Source of the DNA: a virus
Strand: one strand, 5' to 3'
DNA: 25,346 nt
Virus record (IMG/VR): IMGVR_UViG_3300046010_000083
Span: 1 to 25,346 of that record
A model generated the notes under the pieces. That model was not told where the DNA came from. It was given only the letters and a program-made list of their open reading frames with translations, and made no database searches. The translations under genes were made by a program, and so were the position numbers. Of the stretch, positions 155 to 11,115 are shown one piece after another; the first letter of the stretch is position 1; each line of letters starts with the position of its first letter.

Positions 155-196
155 CCCCGATACGCATGACGACATCAGATCGCCCGTTTCGACGCA

Positions 197-739
197 TCAC
201 GCGCCTTCTACGTCGTTCTGACACGGTGTTTCAACCCATGCCCATTGATGCCATGCACAAAGACCGATCGATTCCGAGTAGGCGACAAGTTCTAGGGCGG
301 CACGAAGGTTGATCGTCGGGTCGAACAACTGATCGCATGATGTCAACACGCCCGCAGTTTGTAGATAACCGTCTGAGTAATACTTCGACGGTAAGCACCA
401 GAAGCGGTTGATCTGCGTCAACCCGATACTGCCCCCGTTTGGGTCTGCCGTGTTGATCTGCGACGGATCGCATCGCGACTCTCGATTGATGATGCGATCG
501 AGCGTCGGCAACAACGCGTCATCGAACCCGACCGCGTGAGCAGTCGACCACCATTGCGGGCATCGTGCATCAGGGGATGTTTGCACGACCGTCGTTGATG
601 TCGTCGATGACGACGTTGTTGTCGAAGTGTTGTTGATTGCAGTTGGTTCGGGCGTTGGTGCGTCTAACGCTTTGACGGGCAACGCGATCAGCGCGCCTAC
701 GGTCAATGCGATAGCGATGATGTTTCTTGACTTGATCAT
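197..739 (-). CDS. Secreted lysozyme-like lytic transglycosylase
   Basis: This 180-residue protein probably cleaves peptidoglycan outside the membrane. Residues 1-25 are a signal peptide or anchor (a few basic residues, then a hydrophobic stretch to VKALDA). Residues 28-55 are a Thr/Ser-rich linker. The rest resembles the soluble lytic transglycosylase/lysozyme fold: NRESRCDPS (residues 85-93) with likely catalytic Glu87, and GLTQIN (106-111). Six cysteines fit an exported, disulfide-bonded enzyme. Its ATG overlaps the stop of the replication protein gene (ATGA), so the two are translationally coupled. It is last in the replication operon, away from the M15 peptidase at 8073, so it may serve entry, host wall remodelling or a second lysis step. 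The family call is good; the role is inferred. Confidence 0.85.
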   Translation of the reverse strand: MIKSRNIIAIALTVGALIALPVKALDAPTPEPTAINNTSTTTSSSTTSTTVVQTSPDARCPQWWSTAHAVGFDDALLPTLDRIINRESRCDPSQINTADPNGGSIGLTQINRFWCLPSKYYSDGYLQTAGVLTSCDQLFDPTINLRAALELVAYSESIGLCAWHQWAWVETPCQNDVEGA

Positions 740-3053: not shown

Positions 3054-3694
3054 GACGACATCAACGACTTGATCACGGCTGACGCTTCTTTGCTTGTCAA
3101 CAACGACAACTCGTCAATGTGACGCCCAACGACATCACTTGCGTGTTGGTTCAGGTTTGCGATCGAATGTTCGCGTGCGAGTTTGTGCAACAAGTTCAGT
3201 TGTTTCTCTGATGCAACCGCACCGAGTTGACGCACCTTTGTCGTTTGTGGTGTTTCGACCAATGTCGCGTCTGGGAACGCATCTTTGACAACACGAATGA
3301 TGTTGCCTTCGGTGCGCGTTGTTGGTGTTGCGTGTTGTTCGTCGTTGCGTCGATTGATCACTTCGTCACGACTCGCAATGTGCGGTTCATCGACTGCGAG
3401 ACATGCCATGATCGCACGCCCCCAAGCAGATGTCTCAGCGTTCATGACTTCGCTGTTGCGTGTGAATGATGATGCACCGATCACGGGTTCTGCTGCGACT
3501 GCAACGGCAGGGCAGTTGTCGTCTGGTGAACGGAAACATGCAGCCGTGTAGACGATGAACTCGCGCCCACCGATCTCGACGATCTTGAACGGGTTTGCAG
3601 GATCGAACGGACGCAATACCGCTTCGGGATGTTTGTCACGTAGTTGCTTGATCCTTGTCGCCACGTCGACATAGTTCGATAGGTCGAATGTCAT
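3050..3694 (-). CDS. Putative single-strand DNA annealing/binding protein
   Basis: A 214-residue protein using the ATG at 3694, which overlaps the exonuclease stop (ATGA) and follows AAAGGGGAACAACC. Residues about 45-105 contain FIVYTAACFRS and NSEVMNAETSAWGRAIMACL. The ET-S-x-x-GRA signature is typical of phage ERF/Sak-like and related annealing proteins that sit beside YqaJ exonucleases. The C-terminal third (SEKQLNLLHKLAREH...) resembles a small helical tail found in such proteins. With the exonuclease it would form a two-component recombination system acting on double-strand ends. The pairing is strong; the precise annealase family is not established from sequence alone. Confidence 0.65.
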   Translation of the reverse strand: MTFDLSNYVDVATRIKQLRDKHPEAVLRPFDPANPFKIVEIGGREFIVYTAACFRSPDDNCPAVAVAAEPVIGASSFTRNSEVMNAETSAWGRAIMACLAVDEPHIASRDEVINRRNDEQHATPTTRTEGNIIRVVKDAFPDATLVETPQTTKVRQLGAVASEKQLNLLHKLAREHSIANLNQHASDVVGRHIDELSLLTSKEASAVIKSLMSS

Positions 3695-4647
3695 TGGTTG
3701 TTCCCCTTTGTGTTGATCCGCATGACGCGGGTTGGTTGTTGTTGTTTCATGTACGTCGCGACAAGATCGGGATGATCTTGTTTCAACGACGCAAGGTCGA
3801 CCGATGTTCGTCCCGCTTGTTCTTTCCAAGTGAGAACGGTGACACCGTTCAACGTTGCGATCTCAGCGTCGAGCATGATACGTGCGAGATGATCACGCGC
3901 CGCCTTCTCGATCGTTTCGGCTTGTTTCTTCAAGTCACGTGCATCGGCAAGGTCACGCACCCATGAATGTTCGTCGACCGTCAGTTCACGAACGATCGGT
4001 TGCGGTTTCCACATGTCGGCAATCTGTTCGGCTGTCAACGTGTCGATCATCGTTTCGGCAAGGCGTTCGTCTGCCATGTCGATTGCGTTGCCCAACAACT
4101 CGGCATCGTGCATCAACGTGTCCAACGCTTCTTGATTGCGTGGGATCTCATGATGCGTGATGTTCATGTCGCGATCAAGGACGATCAACCAGACGGGTCG
4201 TTGCATGACCAACATCTGCGCCCAACATTGCCACAAGTAGTCGTGTGGTACGTCATCGATGCTGTTGACGCGATGTCGTCGCGTTGTCTTGACTTCACCG
4301 ATCACGGCGGGCGTGTCGTTGTCGATACCGACCGCGTCGAGTGTGACCGTGAAACGATGATCGCGATACATGCTTGACGGTGTGATCATGTCGATGCCCA
4401 AACGTCGACCAAGTTCGTCGACCAACGCGGGTTCGAGTACGTTCCCGACGTGCATCGCGGCTGTTGTTTCGCTGACGCGCGGTTGTGTTCGTTTCGCGTG
4501 CCAAAGATCGGCACGTGTCATGAATGGTGACGCGTTCATCAATGCAGGTGCGTCGGATGCGCCGAATGTGACGCGTCCTTCATCATCGCGATGACGACGT
4601 TCCAACCATTCCATTGATCCGTGTTTCGGTTTCGGTATGACTTGCAT
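3691..4647 (-). CDS. YqaJ-type viral recombinase/exonuclease
   Basis: A 318-residue protein with the YqaJ domain (lambda-exonuclease-like PD-(D/E)XK fold) in residues about 10-180. Visible motifs are GASDAPALMNASP (29-41), GNVLEP with Glu72, LDA with Asp104, GEVK with Glu118 and Lys120, and WQCWAQM (139-145) with the family glutamine. These give metal ligands Asp104, Glu118 and Lys120. It would resect dsDNA 5' to 3', leaving single strands for the next gene's product. The ATG at 4647 follows AAAGGGGGCAAC. It is the first gene of the leftward recombination operon, with a divergent intergenic region upstream. The C-terminus is helical (DLKKQAETIEKAARDHLAR). The family call is confident. Confidence 0.88.
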   Translation of the reverse strand: MQVIPKPKHGSMEWLERRHRDDEGRVTFGASDAPALMNASPFMTRADLWHAKRTQPRVSETTAAMHVGNVLEPALVDELGRRLGIDMITPSSMYRDHRFTVTLDAVGIDNDTPAVIGEVKTTRRHRVNSIDDVPHDYLWQCWAQMLVMQRPVWLIVLDRDMNITHHEIPRNQEALDTLMHDAELLGNAIDMADERLAETMIDTLTAEQIADMWKPQPIVRELTVDEHSWVRDLADARDLKKQAETIEKAARDHLARIMLDAEIATLNGVTVLTWKEQAGRTSVDLASLKQDHPDLVATYMKQQQPTRVMRINTKGNNQ

Positions 4648-4786
4648 GTTGCCCCCTTTGTTGTGGTGCGATCACGTTGACACATGGGTGTCACACGGTT
4701 TCGCATCGATGTTGTTGTGATGCGACATTACAACCCAATCCACCGTCAGTTGTGCATCTAGCCAAACTGTCCGAGTTGACAAGGTG
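4648..4786. other. Divergent intergenic region with two inverted repeats
   Basis: This spacer lies between the leftward recombination operon and the rightward operon. It holds a perfect inverted repeat TGACAC-ATGG-GTGTCA at 4678-4693 and a 6 bp inverted repeat CGCATC / GATGCG at 4702-4707 and 4719-4724. On the minus strand the loop of the second contains AACAAC. Either could be an operator or leader hairpin for the exonuclease operon. I see no convincing -35/-10 pair for the leftward direction. A TTGACA at 4776-4781 is only 8 bp from the rightward -10. Confidence 0.4.
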
Positions 4787-4795
4787 TGCTATACT
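4787..4795 (+). promoter_or_regulatory. Extended -10 promoter for the rightward operon
   Basis: TGCTATACT is an extended -10 (TGn plus TATACT at 4790-4795). It would start transcription near 4802, about 35 nt before the first ATG. No good -35 lies at 17-18 bp, which the extended -10 could offset. A hairpin begins exactly 6 nt after the hexamer, as at the promoter near position 66. Confidence 0.5.
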
Positions 4796-4801
4796 ATTGT
4801 C

Positions 4802-4819
4802 ATCGATAACAACATCGAT
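4802..4819 (+). promoter_or_regulatory. 5' leader hairpin, ATCGAT-AACAAC-ATCGAT (plus strand)
   Basis: Two palindromic ATCGAT hexamers flank the loop AACAAC. The element starts 6 nt after the -10 and is followed at once by the purine-rich ribosome binding site of the gene at 4837. It matches the element at 42-59 in loop sequence, stem length, distance from -10 and distance to the ribosome binding site, though the stem bases differ at the outer positions. This compensated difference favours a structural role. Confidence 0.5.
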
Positions 4820-4836
4820 AGAAGGAGACAAGGGGA

Positions 4837-5244
4837 ATGATCAACGACAAGGTCGACCAAGCGGTGCGCGAGTTCGCACACGCGGTCGAGACATACGGCA
4901 TGCCCGTGTGGTACGCGCACGTCCCGATCACGGTGCAGGCATTAGTCCCGCGCGACGTGAAACGCGACGTACTCGCCAACGCTCGATTGAGCGAAGGTTG
5001 GGCGTACCAAGACGGTTGCTACTTCAAAGGACGCATCGACGCACGCGCGGCGTTGATCGCATGGGCGAAGGTCAACGTGTTCGAGATCATGACGGTCAAG
5101 GACATCGCGACATCGGCAGGCGTTCCTGAGTCGGCGGTGCGATCAATGATCATCGACCGACCCGACATCCTACGCAAGTCGGACGGGCGCACATACGAAG
5201 TACGCGACCCGCACGGTGATCGACAGATCGAGAAGGGCAGGTGA
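4837..5244 (+). CDS. Small protein with C-terminal winged-helix-like segment
   Basis: A 135-residue protein that I do not recognise by family. The ATG at 4837 has a strong site (GAAGGAGACAAGGGGA). The first 60 residues are mixed helix and strand with VWYAHVPITVQAL. Residues about 85-120 (MTVKDIATSAGVPESAVRSMI) look like a helix-turn-helix followed by DRPDILRKSDGRTYEV, which could be a wing. It is the first gene of a rightward operon facing the recombination operon, a position often held by early regulators. A regulator role is inferred from fold-like pattern and position only. Confidence 0.65.
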   Translation: MINDKVDQAVREFAHAVETYGMPVWYAHVPITVQALVPRDVKRDVLANARLSEGWAYQDGCYFKGRIDARAALIAWAKVNVFEIMTVKDIATSAGVPESAVRSMIIDRPDILRKSDGRTYEVRDPHGDRQIEKGR

Positions 5245-5245
5245 C

Positions 5246-5995
5246 ATGAAGCAAGCACGTTGGAAGTGTCCGACATGCGGTCACGGGTTGCTTGCACCGA
5301 CCCGCCCGCGACGCAACGATGTCCGTCGATACTGTTTGCCGTGTTCGTCGAAGGCAGGCGTGTTGGTCGAACGTGTCGCACCCGCGCTCGATGCACAACG
5401 CAAACGTCGCGACGATCAACGACGGGAACGCGAGAAGGCACAACGGGAACGGGAACACAAACGCAAGAACACACCACGCAAGGTTGCCGCCCGACAGTTC
5501 AGCAAGGTCGGTGCATACGGCATGCCGATCCAAACCGAAACGCAACGCCTATGGCGAATGTTGCGACACATGCCCACGACCTATCGCGGTGCGACAACTG
5601 CGATCAGTCGATCGAAACGAATGCCCGCACCGAAGGTCGCAGTCAAAGACAAGTATTGGTCGATCGACAAGGACGGTCGAGTGTTGAACACGGGAAGGAC
5701 AGCAGGACTCGCGTACACATGGCAACATCGCATCGCGGTCGAACCGAATGTCAGTTGGGAAACGTTGGCGCATGAGATTGTTCATTGCGCGGGATACCAC
5801 AAACACGATCACGCGTTCTATGCGACTCTCATCTGGTTGACCGAACGAAGGTGGCGCACGACGATCAAGGATCGACACACGATCACGCGGTACGGGTATC
5901 ACATCGATTGGATGATCGAACGACAGATCGATGACATCGTTCGCAATCACTTCCAACCGACATCGATCGAACCCACCCAATCAACAACCGAGTGA
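5246..5995 (+). CDS. SprT-like zinc metalloprotease with N-terminal zinc ribbon
   Basis: A 249-residue protein. The ATG at 5246 follows AGAAGGGCAGGTG, one base after the upstream stop. Cysteines 8, 11, 30 and 33 (CPTC, CLPC) make a zinc ribbon. Residues about 50-80 are a highly charged Arg/Glu helix, probably a coiled coil. The protease part has LAHEIVH (175-180; His176, Glu177, His180), the HExxH zinc site, with a third ligand likely His189 in HDHAF, as in SprT/Spartan-type minigluzincins. In cells SprT-like enzymes act on DNA-associated proteins. Usually the zinc ribbon follows the HExxH domain; here a ribbon is at the N-terminus. Substrate unknown; it could remove host DNA-binding proteins, which is inference. 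Confidence 0.78.
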   Translation: MKQARWKCPTCGHGLLAPTRPRRNDVRRYCLPCSSKAGVLVERVAPALDAQRKRRDDQRREREKAQREREHKRKNTPRKVAARQFSKVGAYGMPIQTETQRLWRMLRHMPTTYRGATTAISRSKRMPAPKVAVKDKYWSIDKDGRVLNTGRTAGLAYTWQHRIAVEPNVSWETLAHEIVHCAGYHKHDHAFYATLIWLTERRWRTTIKDRHTITRYGYHIDWMIERQIDDIVRNHFQPTSIEPTQSTTE

Positions 5996-6103
5996 CACCA
6001 CGATCGTAGAAAGGTCGCTAAGGCGCATCAGAACGCGCGTGCTGCGTCAAACCCACCGACCCCCCATGATGACACCCCTGCATCAGAGCGCGCCCGCTAT
6101 GCG
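5992..6103 (+). repeat. Long intergenic direct repeat, copy A
   Basis: A stretch of about 112 bp matches 6464-6576 in the same orientation, roughly three quarters identical by eye with almost no length change. Shared blocks in order are GTGACACC, CGTAGAA(A/G)GGTCGC, AGGCGC, TCAGAACGCG, TGCTGCG, CCGACCCCC, AGAGCGCGCC(C/T)GCT and ATGCG. It begins across the stop codon of the metalloprotease gene. Together with copy B it brackets the small gene at 6197-6430. Confidence 0.7.
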
Positions 6104-6112
6104 ATGCGTTCA

Positions 6113-6144
6113 GCGACGCGCCGACAACAACATCGACGCGTCGC
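6113..6144 (+). terminator. Hairpins between convergent genes (terminator candidate)
   Basis: GCGACGCG (6113-6120) pairs perfectly with CGCGTCGC (6137-6144) across a 16-nt loop that contains ACAACAAC. A second palindrome, CGCGAC-CC-GTCGCG, is at 6170-6183. They lie where the rightward operon meets leftward transcription, so a bidirectional terminator is plausible. Neither is followed by a T-run, so intrinsic termination is uncertain. The loop also resembles the AACAAC leader hairpins. Confidence 0.35.
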
Positions 6145-6196
6145 CCGCGAAGGGTGGGGAAGGGGAAACCGCGACCCGTCGCGTTGAACGCACTTG

Positions 6197-6430
6197 TCAG
6201 ATTACTCGAACCGACACGATCATGCCGATTGGTATGCACAACACATTGTCCAACCCGTCTTCGTTCGTGATCGATTGCGCAACAACGACATGACCCTTCT
6301 TGGCTTCGGGCAACAACCAACCGCACGTTTCGACGATGCAAGGTTCCTGATCGATGTCATCAAAGTCAACCCATGACGTTTCCGCGTGGGCATCATGCCA
6401 AACAACTACCGCCTTCGTTCGCTCGACCAT
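6197..6430 (-). CDS. Small protein of unknown function between direct repeats
   Basis: A 77-residue protein I do not recognise. The ATG at 6430 is preferred because AAGGAAGG lies 8 nt upstream; a TTG at 6451 would add 7 residues but lacks a site. The sequence is mixed alpha/beta and acidic (TSWVDFDDIDQEPC), with a hydrophobic C-terminal part (VLCIPIGMIVSVRVI), and gives no motif. The gene is isolated, opposite to the rightward operon and flanked on both sides by the roughly 112 bp direct repeats, which makes it look like an inserted or duplicated cassette. Confidence 0.6.
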   Translation of the reverse strand: MVERTKAVVVWHDAHAETSWVDFDDIDQEPCIVETCGWLLPEAKKGHVVVAQSITNEDGLDNVLCIPIGMIVSVRVI

Positions 6431-6463
6431 GACATCAACCTTCCTTGTCAATCTGCAATGTCG

Positions 6464-6576
6464 GTGACACCCTGCGCGTAGAAGGGTCGCATAGGCGCGT
6501 CAGAACGCGTCTGCTGCGCGAAACTACCCGACCCCCATCAACACACCCCCCAAACAAGAGCGCGCCTGCTAATGCG
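6464..6576 (+). repeat. Long intergenic direct repeat, copy B
   Basis: Second copy of the element at 5992-6103, in the same orientation. It lies between the 5' end of the small gene (6430) and the 3' end of the metallophosphoesterase gene (6587). Positions 6496-6512 also match, on the other strand, 17 consecutive bases at 132-148. Inside it GCGCGT-CAGA-ACGCGT can form a short hairpin. No coding frame is visible in it. Confidence 0.7.
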
Positions 6577-6586
6577 TCGTTCATGT

Positions 6587-7654
6587 TCACCAACCTTCCT
6601 TCTTGCGATCCACGCAGAAGATAGGCGCGTGCAACGTGATGCCTTTGTTCGGCGCAACGATCGCCAACGCCTGCTGCGGCTGCTCAAACCCAAAGTTGTT
6701 CACATAGGCATACTCATCGATGCCCTTCATCGATCCATTCACGACAAGTGACGGTGACGGCAAGTATTGATGCCAATGCCCAATCCAAAGTGTGTCGAAC
6801 GTTTGACCCGTTGCCAAGAACCGTTGCGCCTTACGTGCGCGCATCCGCATGATCGGTGGATAGATCCCACCAATCCCACCACCACCACTCACCTGATCAC
6901 CATGCGACAACAAGTGCGTCGAGTCATACACCTGCACGATCGCATCCGTACCTTCGGGAACGGTGAACGTGAAACGTTTATCGTCTTTGAAGAACCGTTC
7001 TAACTGTTTGCACAACAACCAATCAAAGTTTGTGCGTGCGCGCATCTTCATTCGCGGTTTGCGTGTCGTGCGCCCATGATTACCAGCAACACCCGCAACA
7101 TGAACATGCTTGAACTCGCCTGCAAGCAGATCGAGCGCAGACGCAATGTGTTCACACCAATAGAGAAACGACGACAACATCGTGTCTTCGTTCGTTTGTT
7201 GTAGTTCTTCGTGAATGTCACCCGAGAAGATGTCACCACCCAACATCACGACACAACCGTCATACTTCATGCCCGCAAGATAGTGACGTGACAGTTTGAC
7301 GACGTTCGCACACCAACGTTCCAACCTGATGCGTGCGATCGCGCGGTTGTATGCGTTCAATCCTTCAACTTCGGCAGGTTCGACGACTTCATCGAGATGC
7401 AAGTCAGACAACATCAACATCAACGTCGCTGACGCTTTGCTTGACGGTTTCTTTGGCATCGCCCACGCGATCGGTTGCAGATGTTGGGACTCGACATGTT
7501 CAACGAACGTCAACGCACGTTGCACCGACGCAAGTTGTTCAGTCAATCGAGCAACTTCTTTGACCGCGCTGTCGCGTTCACGTCGAACACGCAACAAGTC
7601 AACATTGTCATCAAGTGCGCGTTGATCACGCAGTTCATCACTCAGACCCGACAT
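6587..7654 (-). CDS. Calcineurin-like metallophosphoesterase
   Basis: A 355-residue protein with the metallophosphoesterase metal-binding series in order: SDLH (Asp84, His86), GGD (139-141, Asp141), GNHGR (191-195, Asn192, His193), SHGD (His251) and GHWH (His293, His295). Residues 20-50 are a charged helix, probably coiled coil. Such enzymes hydrolyse phosphodiesters with two metal ions; many phages carry them and their DNA or nucleotide targets are mostly unknown. There is no partner ATPase as in SbcCD. It is the last gene of the late operon, overlapping the small upstream gene by 17 bp. The ATG at 7654 follows GGGGGTTGT. The family call is firm, the substrate is not known. Confidence 0.85.
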   Translation of the reverse strand: MSGLSDELRDQRALDDNVDLLRVRRERDSAVKEVARLTEQLASVQRALTFVEHVESQHLQPIAWAMPKKPSSKASATLMLMLSDLHLDEVVEPAEVEGLNAYNRAIARIRLERWCANVVKLSRHYLAGMKYDGCVVMLGGDIFSGDIHEELQQTNEDTMLSSFLYWCEHIASALDLLAGEFKHVHVAGVAGNHGRTTRKPRMKMRARTNFDWLLCKQLERFFKDDKRFTFTVPEGTDAIVQVYDSTHLLSHGDQVSGGGGIGGIYPPIMRMRARKAQRFLATGQTFDTLWIGHWHQYLPSPSLVVNGSMKGIDEYAYVNNFGFEQPQQALAIVAPNKGITLHAPIFCVDRKKEGW

Positions 7655-8776: not shown

Positions 8777-9111
8777 GGCAATGTCACAAACTCATCAAGT
8801 TGCGCGTCATAGTAATCACCGATGCCAGCATACTGACCCCTGAATGGTGTGCCACCGTTTGCATGAAAACTACCGACATAGGTGCGGCTTGTTTCGATGC
8901 GTTCATCATCGTTGTTCCAAGTTGCTTCATACTTGCGGTAAGTATTGTACGAAGTTTGCTTCCAAGTCTTACCAGCACCATGAACCTGAGTCAGATAAGC
9001 AACACCTACTGCCTCTGATTCAGGGAACGACAAATCCTGAATGTCGCTGTTGATCACAACACTCACTTGAAACACTTTGTTGTGTTCGTCGAGCCATGCA
9101 AAGTGTGCCAT
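8773..9111 (-). CDS. MAHFA-type virion-associated protein, copy 1
   Basis: 112 residues of a type often found beside fibre genes in aquatic phages. Landmarks are MAHFAWLDEHNKV at the start, WKQTSYNTYRKYE in the middle, and RGQYAGIGDYYDAQLDEFV at the end. A shorter paralogue is at 10013-10258 with the same start, W-x-QTSYN and AGIGD. Start and stop overlap the neighbours (TAATG and ATGA), coupling it to the glycine-rich fibre gene upstream. It may be a fibre chaperone, tip protein or small structural part; the function is not established. Confidence 0.65.
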   Translation of the reverse strand: MAHFAWLDEHNKVFQVSVVINSDIQDLSFPESEAVGVAYLTQVHGAGKTWKQTSYNTYRKYEATWNNDDERIETSRTYVGSFHANGGTPFRGQYAGIGDYYDAQLDEFVTLP

Positions 9112-10016
9112 TACCTAAACCTCACCATCACAAGACCCGACCCACCAGCAGCCGCAGTAAACGGCGGGTCTTGGTTCATGCGTGCGAATCCGCCTGCACC
9201 ACCGCCACGATTCGCTGTTCCGCTTGTATTGGTCGTCGTCTGATTCGTTCCGCTACCGCCGCCATCCGTGCCTGCTGTCACGGCTTGCGTTGTTGAGTGT
9301 CCACCAGCACCACCGCCGCCGTAGCCAACAGATGAGCCAGTCCACGAGTACGACAAGCCGACGCCACCAGCGCCGCCTTTCATGGTTTCTTGTCCGCCAG
9401 TTTGCGTGTAGTTCGCACCAGCGCCACCTGCACCGCCACCGCCACCGCCTGCAGCGTAGTTGCTGTTGTTGTAGCCCTGACCGCCTGAAAAACCGTTGAT
9501 CGCCGATGTAGCGCCAGATTGAACGGCGTATGGCGTACCTGAGTCTCCTTGGCAACCACCACCACCGTTGGCTCCCCAGATTGACATAGTCGTTTCACCA
9601 CCTTGGTTCTTACGTCCTCCGCCACCGCCTACCATGACGAGACGAGATCCGATCCCACTCCAACCGCCGATGTTGCCGCCGTTGCTGTTTGCAGCGCCAC
9701 CAGCGCCGACAGTTACCGCGTATGTTCCAGCCGCAAAATAAGCCGTACCAGTAAGGATACCGCCGCCAGCGCCAGCGCCACCAGACGAACCGCTGCTGGC
9801 TCGTCCTAAGCCACCGCCCGCGCTCAGTACGAAGAAATCAAACAAGCCAGCCTCGCTCACAGTCAACGTGCCATCGCCCGTGAATGACAACAACTGCCAC
9901 GTGAAACCACCATCGCTAGGTGTTGTCAACGTGCCGCCAGATGCGACACCGTAATCTAAGATAGCGAGTGTGTCAGTTGTCTGCGATGAGACATAGCCCA
10001 TGTAGGAACGCGTCAT
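9111..10016 (-). CDS. Glycine-rich tail fibre or adhesin-like protein, copy 1
   Basis: 301 residues. The N-terminus has MTRSYMGYVSSQ, then a short beta-rich unit (DGGFTWQLLSFTGDGTLTVS, about 55-75). From about 85 on the protein is dominated by glycine-rich runs (GGGGGRKNQGG, AAGGGGGGAGG and others). It ends GSGLVMVRFR, a C-terminal pattern typical of phage glycine-rich repeat proteins. Such sequences can fold as polyglycine helices in tail tips and adhesins. It sits after the minor tail genes and before lysis genes, where receptor-binding proteins are expected. Host receptor binding is inferred. Confidence 0.7.
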   Translation of the reverse strand: MTRSYMGYVSSQTTDTLAILDYGVASGGTLTTPSDGGFTWQLLSFTGDGTLTVSEAGLFDFFVLSAGGGLGRASSGSSGGAGAGGGILTGTAYFAAGTYAVTVGAGGAANSNGGNIGGWSGIGSRLVMVGGGGGRKNQGGETTMSIWGANGGGGCQGDSGTPYAVQSGATSAINGFSGGQGYNNSNYAAGGGGGGAGGAGANYTQTGGQETMKGGAGGVGLSYSWTGSSVGYGGGGAGGHSTTQAVTAGTDGGGSGTNQTTTNTSGTANRGGGAGGFARMNQDPPFTAAAGGSGLVMVRFR

Positions 10017-10258
10017 TCTGTCACCTCACTTGACGACGAAACAAACTGCGACCCATTCCAAATGTCACCGATACCAGCAAACTTCCCACGATCAGCACCT
10101 TCGATCGGATTCGCATTGTACGAAGTCTGCACCCACTCACCACCAAGACCAATACTTGCGATGAACGCTTTACCTGCGGCTTCTGTCGGCGCATCATCAT
10201 TACCGACGACGATCACCTCACGCACCACACCGTTCTCGATCTTTGCGAAATGTGCCAT
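10013..10258 (-). CDS. MAHFA-type virion-associated protein, copy 2
   Basis: 81 residues from the ATG at 10258, which overlaps the upstream stop (TAATG); a TTG at 10300 is less likely. It begins MAHFAKIENGVVREVIVV and carries WVQTSYN and RGKFAGIGDIWNG, matching copy 1 at 8773-9111, but it lacks about 30 residues between the QTSYN and RG blocks. Each MAHFA gene directly follows a glycine-rich gene, so the pair was probably duplicated as a unit. Function unknown; association with the fibre is inferred from linkage. Confidence 0.65.
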   Translation of the reverse strand: MAHFAKIENGVVREVIVVGNDDAPTEAAGKAFIASIGLGGEWVQTSYNANPIEGADRGKFAGIGDIWNGSQFVSSSSEVTE

Positions 10259-11115
10259 TACGAAACCACCAAAGTTCCTGTGGAATCCCACGCATACCAA
10301 GTGTAAGAACCGTCAGTTCCGTTCGTTGTCGTGCCTGTCGTTGAGAAAGTAAGACCTGCGCCTGCTGCTTCTGCGGTGAGCCACCGAACGACAACACGAC
10401 CCGAGCCGCCAGCACCTTGGCTTGTTGTGTTGTAAGCACCACCACCACCACCACCACGGTTAGCAGTTCCATTAGTTCCAGAACTAACGCCGCCATTCCC
10501 TGCATTAGTTCCGCCCGTACCGCCAGCCGTACTTCCACCGCCACCACCGCCACCAGAGTAAGAAATGCTGCTACCCGTGTAGTTGTTCGTTGAAGCCGCA
10601 CCACCTGCGCCACCTGTCGTGCCAGAACCGTTGCTTCCTGTTCCACCAGCACCACCGCCGCCACCGCCGTTAGTTTGCACACTACCCGTCGTGGCTCCAC
10701 CATTGTTGCCTTCACCGCTTATGCCAGAACCACCACTTCTGCTCTCGCCACCAGCACCACCGCCAGAACCACCAAGACCCCCAACAGATGCATAGCCGCC
10801 GCCGCCGCCACCATTCGCACTACTAATAAATGAACTAGCCGTGCCAGTATTACCTGTTCCTATGTCGGTTGAAGCAGGCACCGCGCCACCTGCACCGACC
10901 TTCACGGTGTAGGTGGTCTTGCCGATGATGCCTGTTCCTGTGACGAATCCACCACCACCGCCGCCACCACTAGCAAACGCACCGAAACGAGTAAAGCAGC
11001 CACCAGCACCGCCGCCACCGACAAGCAGATACTCAACACTCAAGAAAGCCATCGTCGGCACAACCTGCGACGACTGCGATGACACATACCCAAGTTGACG
11101 GCGAGCAGTAGACAT
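10258..11115 (-). CDS. Glycine-rich tail fibre or adhesin-like protein, copy 2
   Basis: 285 residues, paralogous in plan to the protein at 9111-10016. It starts MSTARRQLGYVSSQSS, then VEYLLVGGGGAGG, long Gly/Ser/Thr runs, and AGGSGRVVVRW near 230. Beyond that it has a C-terminal unit, TDGSYTWYAWDSTGTLVVS, that resembles the unit placed near the N-terminus of copy 1. So the two fibres share parts in a different order. The ATG at 11115 is 8 nt after the preceding gene's stop. Likely virion surface or receptor-binding; inferred from composition and location. Confidence 0.7.
   Translation of the reverse strand: MSTARRQLGYVSSQSSQVVPTMAFLSVEYLLVGGGGAGGCFTRFGAFASGGGGGGGFVTGTGIIGKTTYTVKVGAGGAVPASTDIGTGNTGTASSFISSANGGGGGGYASVGGLGGSGGGAGGESRSGGSGISGEGNNGGATTGSVQTNGGGGGGAGGTGSNGSGTTGGAGGAASTNNYTGSSISYSGGGGGGGSTAGGTGGTNAGNGGVSSGTNGTANRGGGGGGAYNTTSQGAGGSGRVVVRWLTAEAAGAGLTFSTTGTTTNGTDGSYTWYAWDSTGTLVVS

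Follow-up and report, generated by a model that had tools for sequence, protein, structure and literature searches.

A duplicated, clade-specific non-coding element at a convergent operon junction of an uncultured phage, with a possible role at transcript ends

The stretch of DNA analyzed here (the window) is a 25,346-base IMG/VR virus record in which the genes for terminase, protease, major head protein, and tape measure lie on the - strand. The closest GenBank phage terminases share at most 40% identity with that of the window, and because those of Pontimonas and Streptomyces phages lead the matches, the record probably represents an uncultured phage of actinobacteria. Also on the - strand, genes with Gly-rich repeats (9111-11115; CCACCGCC runs on the + strand) possibly encode tail-associated proteins. 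A related genome carries, in a region that the window lacks (L101:2079-7598), genes for QueC and for GTP cyclohydrolase-like, ferredoxin/QueE-like, and PAPS-reductase-like proteins, which suggests 7-deazaguanine DNA modification; at L101:3987-5198 a ParB-like N-terminal part is fused to DUF6610.

Toward the left of the window, a rightward operon of two genes, the second encoding a putative metallopeptidase, converges on a leftward operon that ends with an exonuclease gene and then a small gene (Table 1). The window also contains a replication initiator gene (736-1524), a RecE-like gene (3691-4647), and a gene for a WhiB-like regulator (2335-2631, - strand; phrog_472, E 2.5e-20). Upstream of the start of the RecE-like gene lies an inverted repeat, TGACACATGGGTGTCA (4678-4693), which is a possible operator; in one relative (L010, about 2230-2375), TTCCCTTCTA and TAGAAGGGAA upstream of the same gene form an inverted repeat that would cover its ribosome-binding site.

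Table 1. Features of the convergent junction and of the partial match near the left end of the window
Feature	Position	Strand	Remarks
First gene of rightward operon	4837-5244	+	No assigned function
Metallopeptidase, SprT/WLM-like by motif	5246-5995	+	HEIVH (HExxH) motif; WLM match only weak (E 0.014); last gene of rightward operon
Copy A	5992-6103	+	Begins on metallopeptidase stop codon (TGA, 5993-5995); model hit 6003-6065, + strand
Conserved 50-nt core, copy A	6005-6054	+	Alignment columns 34-83
C-rich, G-poor tract, copy A	6055-6082	+	rut-like if read as + strand RNA
Second box, copy A	6083-6098	+	TCAGAGCGCGCCCGCT; resembles core box at 6028-6043
Hairpin 2	6113-6144		GCGACGCG...CGCGTCGC, palindromic on both strands; two pairs with compensatory change; no T-tract
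Hairpin 1	6146-6183	-	After small gene; loop holds TTCCCCTTCCCC
Small gene, 77 aa	6197-6430	-	Predicted small beta-barrel; last gene of leftward operon
Copy B	6464-6576	+	Between exonuclease gene (ends 6587) and small gene (starts 6430); model hit 6475-6537, + strand
Conserved 50-nt core, copy B	6477-6526	+	Alignment columns 34-83
C-rich, G-poor tract, copy B	6527-6554	+	Downstream of core
Second box, copy B	6555-6570	+	CAAGAGCGCGCCTGCT; kept in all B copies
Exonuclease/metallophosphoesterase-like gene	6587-7654	-	phrog_284, E 8e-46; upstream of copy B
Partial match C	186-208	-	GAAGGCGCGTGATGCGTCGAAAC; spans TGA 199-197, stop of last leftward early gene; matches copy A core

Two copies of a direct repeat, A and B, bracket the small gene. 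The initial annotation placed and oriented them correctly, and its estimate of about three-quarters identity agrees with a global alignment (88 of 114 columns, 77%). The local alignment score of the pair is 92, against a maximum of 33 for 1,000 pairs of dinucleotide shuffles and of 52 for segment pairs drawn at random from the window (about 3,000 pairs); a repeat search of the window grouped A and B as a family of two, with 79% identity in an ungapped match of the first 73 nt. Each copy comprises a conserved 50-nt core running from CGTAGAAGGGTCGCATAGGCGCGTCAGAACGCG to TGCTGCGTCAAACCC on the + strand (columns CGTAG...AAACCC), a C-rich tract, and a previously overlooked pair of boxes of the form TCAGARCGCG...GCT (at 6028 and 6083 in A, 6500 and 6555 in B). 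With mismatches allowed, the box pattern occurs in the window overall at a chance number. Both copies are GC-rich, with no AT-rich stretch. Two candidate features of the - strand were discarded: a G-quadruplex motif occurs in copies of five relatives (L003, L005, L006, L007, and L009) but is missing from those of the window, L004, and L008, and so is not the shared feature; a nut/boxA-like GCGCTCTTG in B copies is not kept in A copies.

Apart from the window, eight IMG/VR contigs were found by protein and DNA searches to contain the element, and the carriers form one clade. Seven of the eight contain both copies; the most diverged (L008, with an exonuclease 81% identical) has copy A only. In one contig (L002, 3300046011_000069) the exonuclease gene, the small gene, and both copies are identical to those of the window, whereas the other contigs differ. 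In all eight, copy A lies at the metallopeptidase stop codon, where the rightward genes meet the leftward operon. The element is absent from about 60 relatives at greater distance, whose exonucleases are 62-73% identical, from metallopeptidase relatives outside the clade (profile search), and from 22 further records searched with a covariance model. No GenBank phage matched it in a DNA-level search, a 22-nt core pattern was not found in the prokaryote genomes searched, and a 15-nt core word gave, in a wider search beyond the clade, only matches lacking wider similarity to the element. Most relatives without a convergent metallopeptidase gene are also without the element; two (L041 and L042) have the gene and lack the element. 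Because all carriers form one clade, the association of the element with convergence may reflect a single historical event.

The distribution also bears on how the pair arose. Copy B contains GTGACACC, which matches the 3′ end of the metallopeptidase gene at copy A; in distant relatives this word lies inside the metallopeptidase coding sequence. Since L008 has A without B, and B carries what appears to be a metallopeptidase 3′ end, copy B is probably a duplicate of A that was inserted between the exonuclease and small genes within the clade. Some variants are common to the two copies within a genome, such as CCCTGC in L005 and CCCCGC in L009, a pattern that may be due to gene conversion or to co-evolution with a partner.

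The kept blocks had been attributed to selection on sites rather than to a recent duplication, and the comparison of relatives upholds this: both copies persist in seven related contigs, and the core is conserved far above four-fold sites. Between L003 and L008 the copy A cores are identical at 42 of 50 positions (84%), as against 48 of 121 four-fold sites of the exonuclease gene (40%); other pairs show similar contrasts, which indicate that the core is under selection. The substitution pattern is not that of a coding sequence. An open reading frame of about 45 codons begins just past the exonuclease stop in copy B and is open in six B copies, but nearly all differences are non-synonymous and are distributed among codon positions, the copy in the window has shifted frame with respect to the rest, and the A copies break the frame, so that a small protein encoded here is highly improbable. 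The element is real, selected, clade-specific, and non-coding.

The bracketed small gene is itself real, being intact in relatives and matching phrog_25889. It had been described as isolated; it instead closes the leftward operon, normally with the exonuclease gene immediately upstream. Sixteen aligned relatives of its product share invariant W, D-A-H, W, G, L, H, Q, P, and M positions, and the product is predicted to fold into a small barrel of five strands (mean pLDDT 85.5). Matches to this fold are middling (best Z 6.6; Hfq chains at Z 5-6, others similar), and two structure searches, one of them with Foldseek, listed no clear relative; "small beta-barrel" is therefore the only safe description, and the matches show no function. 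Direct repeats on either side of a single gene resemble a mobile cassette, as the initial annotation had suggested, in which the repeats would be recombination ends carrying the small gene. This we regard as hardly credible: the gene occupies the same place, usually abutting the exonuclease gene, in about 60 relatives that lack the element, it is present in L008 with a single copy, and every element-bearing contig also has it. The small gene is thus an old neighbor; the repeats came to it, not with it.

RNA structure, also proposed at the outset as a target of selection, is possible on the + strand. There the folding of the alignment surpasses that of column shuffles (z about -2.2 for all copies and -2.8 for B copies), but pair counts on the proposed structure are no higher than in shuffles. 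The consensus structure of the - strand is no better than column shuffles. A candidate + strand hairpin (GGGUCGC / GCGCGU-CAGA-ACGCGU / GCG..ACCC) is kept in 93% of cells, with a count of changes not above that of shuffles. Between the small gene and copy A lie two further conserved hairpins that had not been remarked on (6113-6183; Table 1). A structured 3′ UTR or small RNA, in which a + strand (or - strand) copy would be processed and stabilized or would act on other phage mRNAs, would account for the + strand fold and for the structural conservation of these neighboring hairpins. It is nonetheless an unlikely explanation, given that copies taken singly show no exceptional stability (z -0.5 to -1.3), that there is no significant covariation within the element itself, that Rfam 15 covariance models gave no match to it at gathering score, and that promoter-like sites around it do not rise above chance. 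A search for tRNA and tmRNA found none. An intrinsic terminator was considered and rejected; hairpin plus T-tract sites of the region are within chance, none falls in the cores, and one weak match (6560-6577) lies at the edge of copy B.

Hairpins with a TCCCCTTC-type loop recur after the small gene in several relatives (L010, L017, L041-L049, and L070). Of 73 relatives, 21 have CCCCTTC within the first 150 nt past the small-gene stop, where these loci would be expected to show about 0.01 occurrences per 150 nt. The TCCCCTTC loop is complementary to AAGGGGA ribosome-binding sites present in these phages; the hairpin could serve as a terminator or as an RNA binding those sites.

The C-rich tract differs from the core in what has been kept. 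Its excess of C over G ranks in the top 1.4% of 60-nt windows of this DNA for copy A and the top 0.4% for copy B (top 0.01-5% and 0.01-0.3%, respectively, in the relatives tested). The L008 tract is at background in sequence identity (12/26 to 15/26), yet it ranks in the top 0.4% of 60-nt windows for C minus G excess; composition kept without sequence being kept is the pattern expected of a Rho loading tract. A C-rich, G-poor RNA strand (C>G bubble), as in Rho terminators, was found on the + strand in each contig tested.

A third site, partial match C, had also escaped notice. An orthologous site is kept in two relatives (L100 and L102), making three genomes with the window. In profile searches C is weak (E 0.05-0.2, nhmmer) and its C-rich tract is absent; a model hit at 149-132 (E 3.7) corresponds to a neighboring box. 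Because the search pattern was drawn from these same sequences and the E values are of this order, the evidence is only suggestive that C is a third, partial copy at the end of the leftward early operon. If it is real, the element stands in the same sense at the stop codons of both operons facing away from about 4650-4830, which are deemed early because they carry RecE-like, WhiB-like, and replication initiator genes. Comparison with a permuted relative of 26.8 kb (L100/L101) shows that the left end of the window is a promoter region after the last gene of the leftward early operon. A strong promoter-like sequence, TTGACA-18-TACGAT, is located there (95-66, - strand), with tandem TCAGAACGCG-type boxes (TCAGAACGCGTCAGAACGCGTC) upstream of it, the whole arrangement lying at 66-154. 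L100 and L102 both keep the promoter; in L100 the tandem boxes are only partly kept and the region C box is disrupted.

These boxes raise the possibility that the element is a DNA site for a phage-encoded regulator, serving as an orientation-dependent roadblock or operator of the stoperator kind. TCAGAACGCG-type boxes occur twice in each of A and B as well as in tandem above the 95-66 promoter, so one protein could act both at the early promoter and within operons, and the core is asymmetric and kept in sequence more than in structure. This explanation deserves some weight but is on the unlikely side: the element has two full copies and one partial match only, as opposed to L5-type phages with their numerous short sites, the window overall shows no enrichment of the box pattern with mismatches, the box of region C is disrupted in L100, and the proteins scanned (part of the genome) include no repressor family, although the WhiB-like gene is present. 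Less likely still is a site for DNA replication, recombination, or packaging. A/B and C, in opposite orientation, flank the early module, the replication initiator and RecE-like genes lie between them, and recombination exonucleases are near; the GC skew, however, has no turning point at the repeats, the GC-rich copies contain no AT-rich stretch, and the element is missing from distant relatives in which those exonuclease and RecE-like genes are present.

We tentatively favor, while giving it somewhat less than an even chance, the interpretation that the element acts in + strand RNA at transcript ends, most likely as a factor-dependent (Rho-type) terminator, present twice at the place where early and late transcription would meet head-on. 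RNA from the rightward operon (4837-5995) would run past the metallopeptidase stop codon into copy A and would expose the core, possibly as the hairpin GGGUCGC..GCGCGU-CAGA-ACGCGU..GCG; the untranslated C-rich, G-poor tract that follows is of the kind that loads Rho, and transcription would stop before running antisense into the leftward late operon. Copy B, in the same orientation 470 bp further along, would be a second barrier ahead of the exonuclease gene, backing up the first, and C would be the corresponding mark where the leftward early operon ends. The orientation of C relative to its operon, which is the same as that of copy A, and the conserved hairpins flanking copy A, with the compensatory changes of hairpin 2, are counted in favor of termination. 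So are the selection on the core, the place of copy A, the lack of the element in most relatives without a convergent metallopeptidase gene, the C>G bias, and the + strand fold; the pair counts, the case of L041 and L042, the weakness of C, the restriction of carriers to one clade, the poor prediction of Rut sites by C>G bias alone, and the place of copy B weigh against it. Copy A directly follows the metallopeptidase stop; copy B does not directly follow a + strand gene. The early description of a duplicated regulatory element is plausible, and B appears to derive from A. The copies, how well they are kept, where they lie and in which direction, and their richness in C are observations; + strand transcription, the action of Rho or a phage factor, and the backup role of B are what we infer.

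A conserved sequence of 50 nt is not a known property of Rho sites, and the core therefore calls for something more than Rho loading. It is conceivable, if improbable, that a phage- or host-encoded factor recognizes the core and recruits or stabilizes Rho, which would give a sequence-specific terminator, present at the ends of both early operons and copyable to new junctions. The bracketed small beta-barrel protein, whose predicted fold is shared with Sm/Hfq-like proteins among others, could be part of such a system. Convergent operons lie close together in phage genomes, and little has been established about how transcription in uncultured phages such as these is kept from colliding. The question becomes directly testable with a conserved, duplicated operon-end element that was gained within a single clade, and the involvement of a sequence-specific factor would make the terminator portable.

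Several known systems resemble the element in part. The RNA-based replication origins of cluster A prophages (PMC7157519) are likewise non-coding, intergenic, and from actinobacterial phages; they are single transcribed regions beside parABS, whereas the element has two dispersed copies and no evidence of a primer RNA. Intrinsic bidirectional terminators share its position at a convergent phage operon junction, and hairpins 1 and 2 have that character, but the element is not a simple hairpin with a T-tract and it occurs twice. The operators and stoperators of mycobacteriophage L5 are asymmetric, repeated, intergenic sites whose orientation follows transcription (PMC9283540), features found in the element also; L5-type sites are of 13 bp and number more than 20 per genome, in contrast to an element of about 110 bp for which nhmmer and model searches of the contigs found only A, B, and a weak C, with no short 13-bp consensus in many copies. 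Rho-dependent terminators are a further parallel. Their rut sites, unlike the element, on which Rho would act, are not defined by a conserved 50-nt core or by duplication as a unit. C>G bubbles are an empirical sign of Rho terminators, Rut sites are poorly predicted by C>G bias alone, and most Rut sites of B. subtilis are antisense to genes (PMC12350095), a pattern that the placement of A and B fits. Copy A, read as + strand RNA, would resemble such terminators in being C-rich, G-poor, and untranslated just past a stop codon, where read-through would be antisense to another operon.
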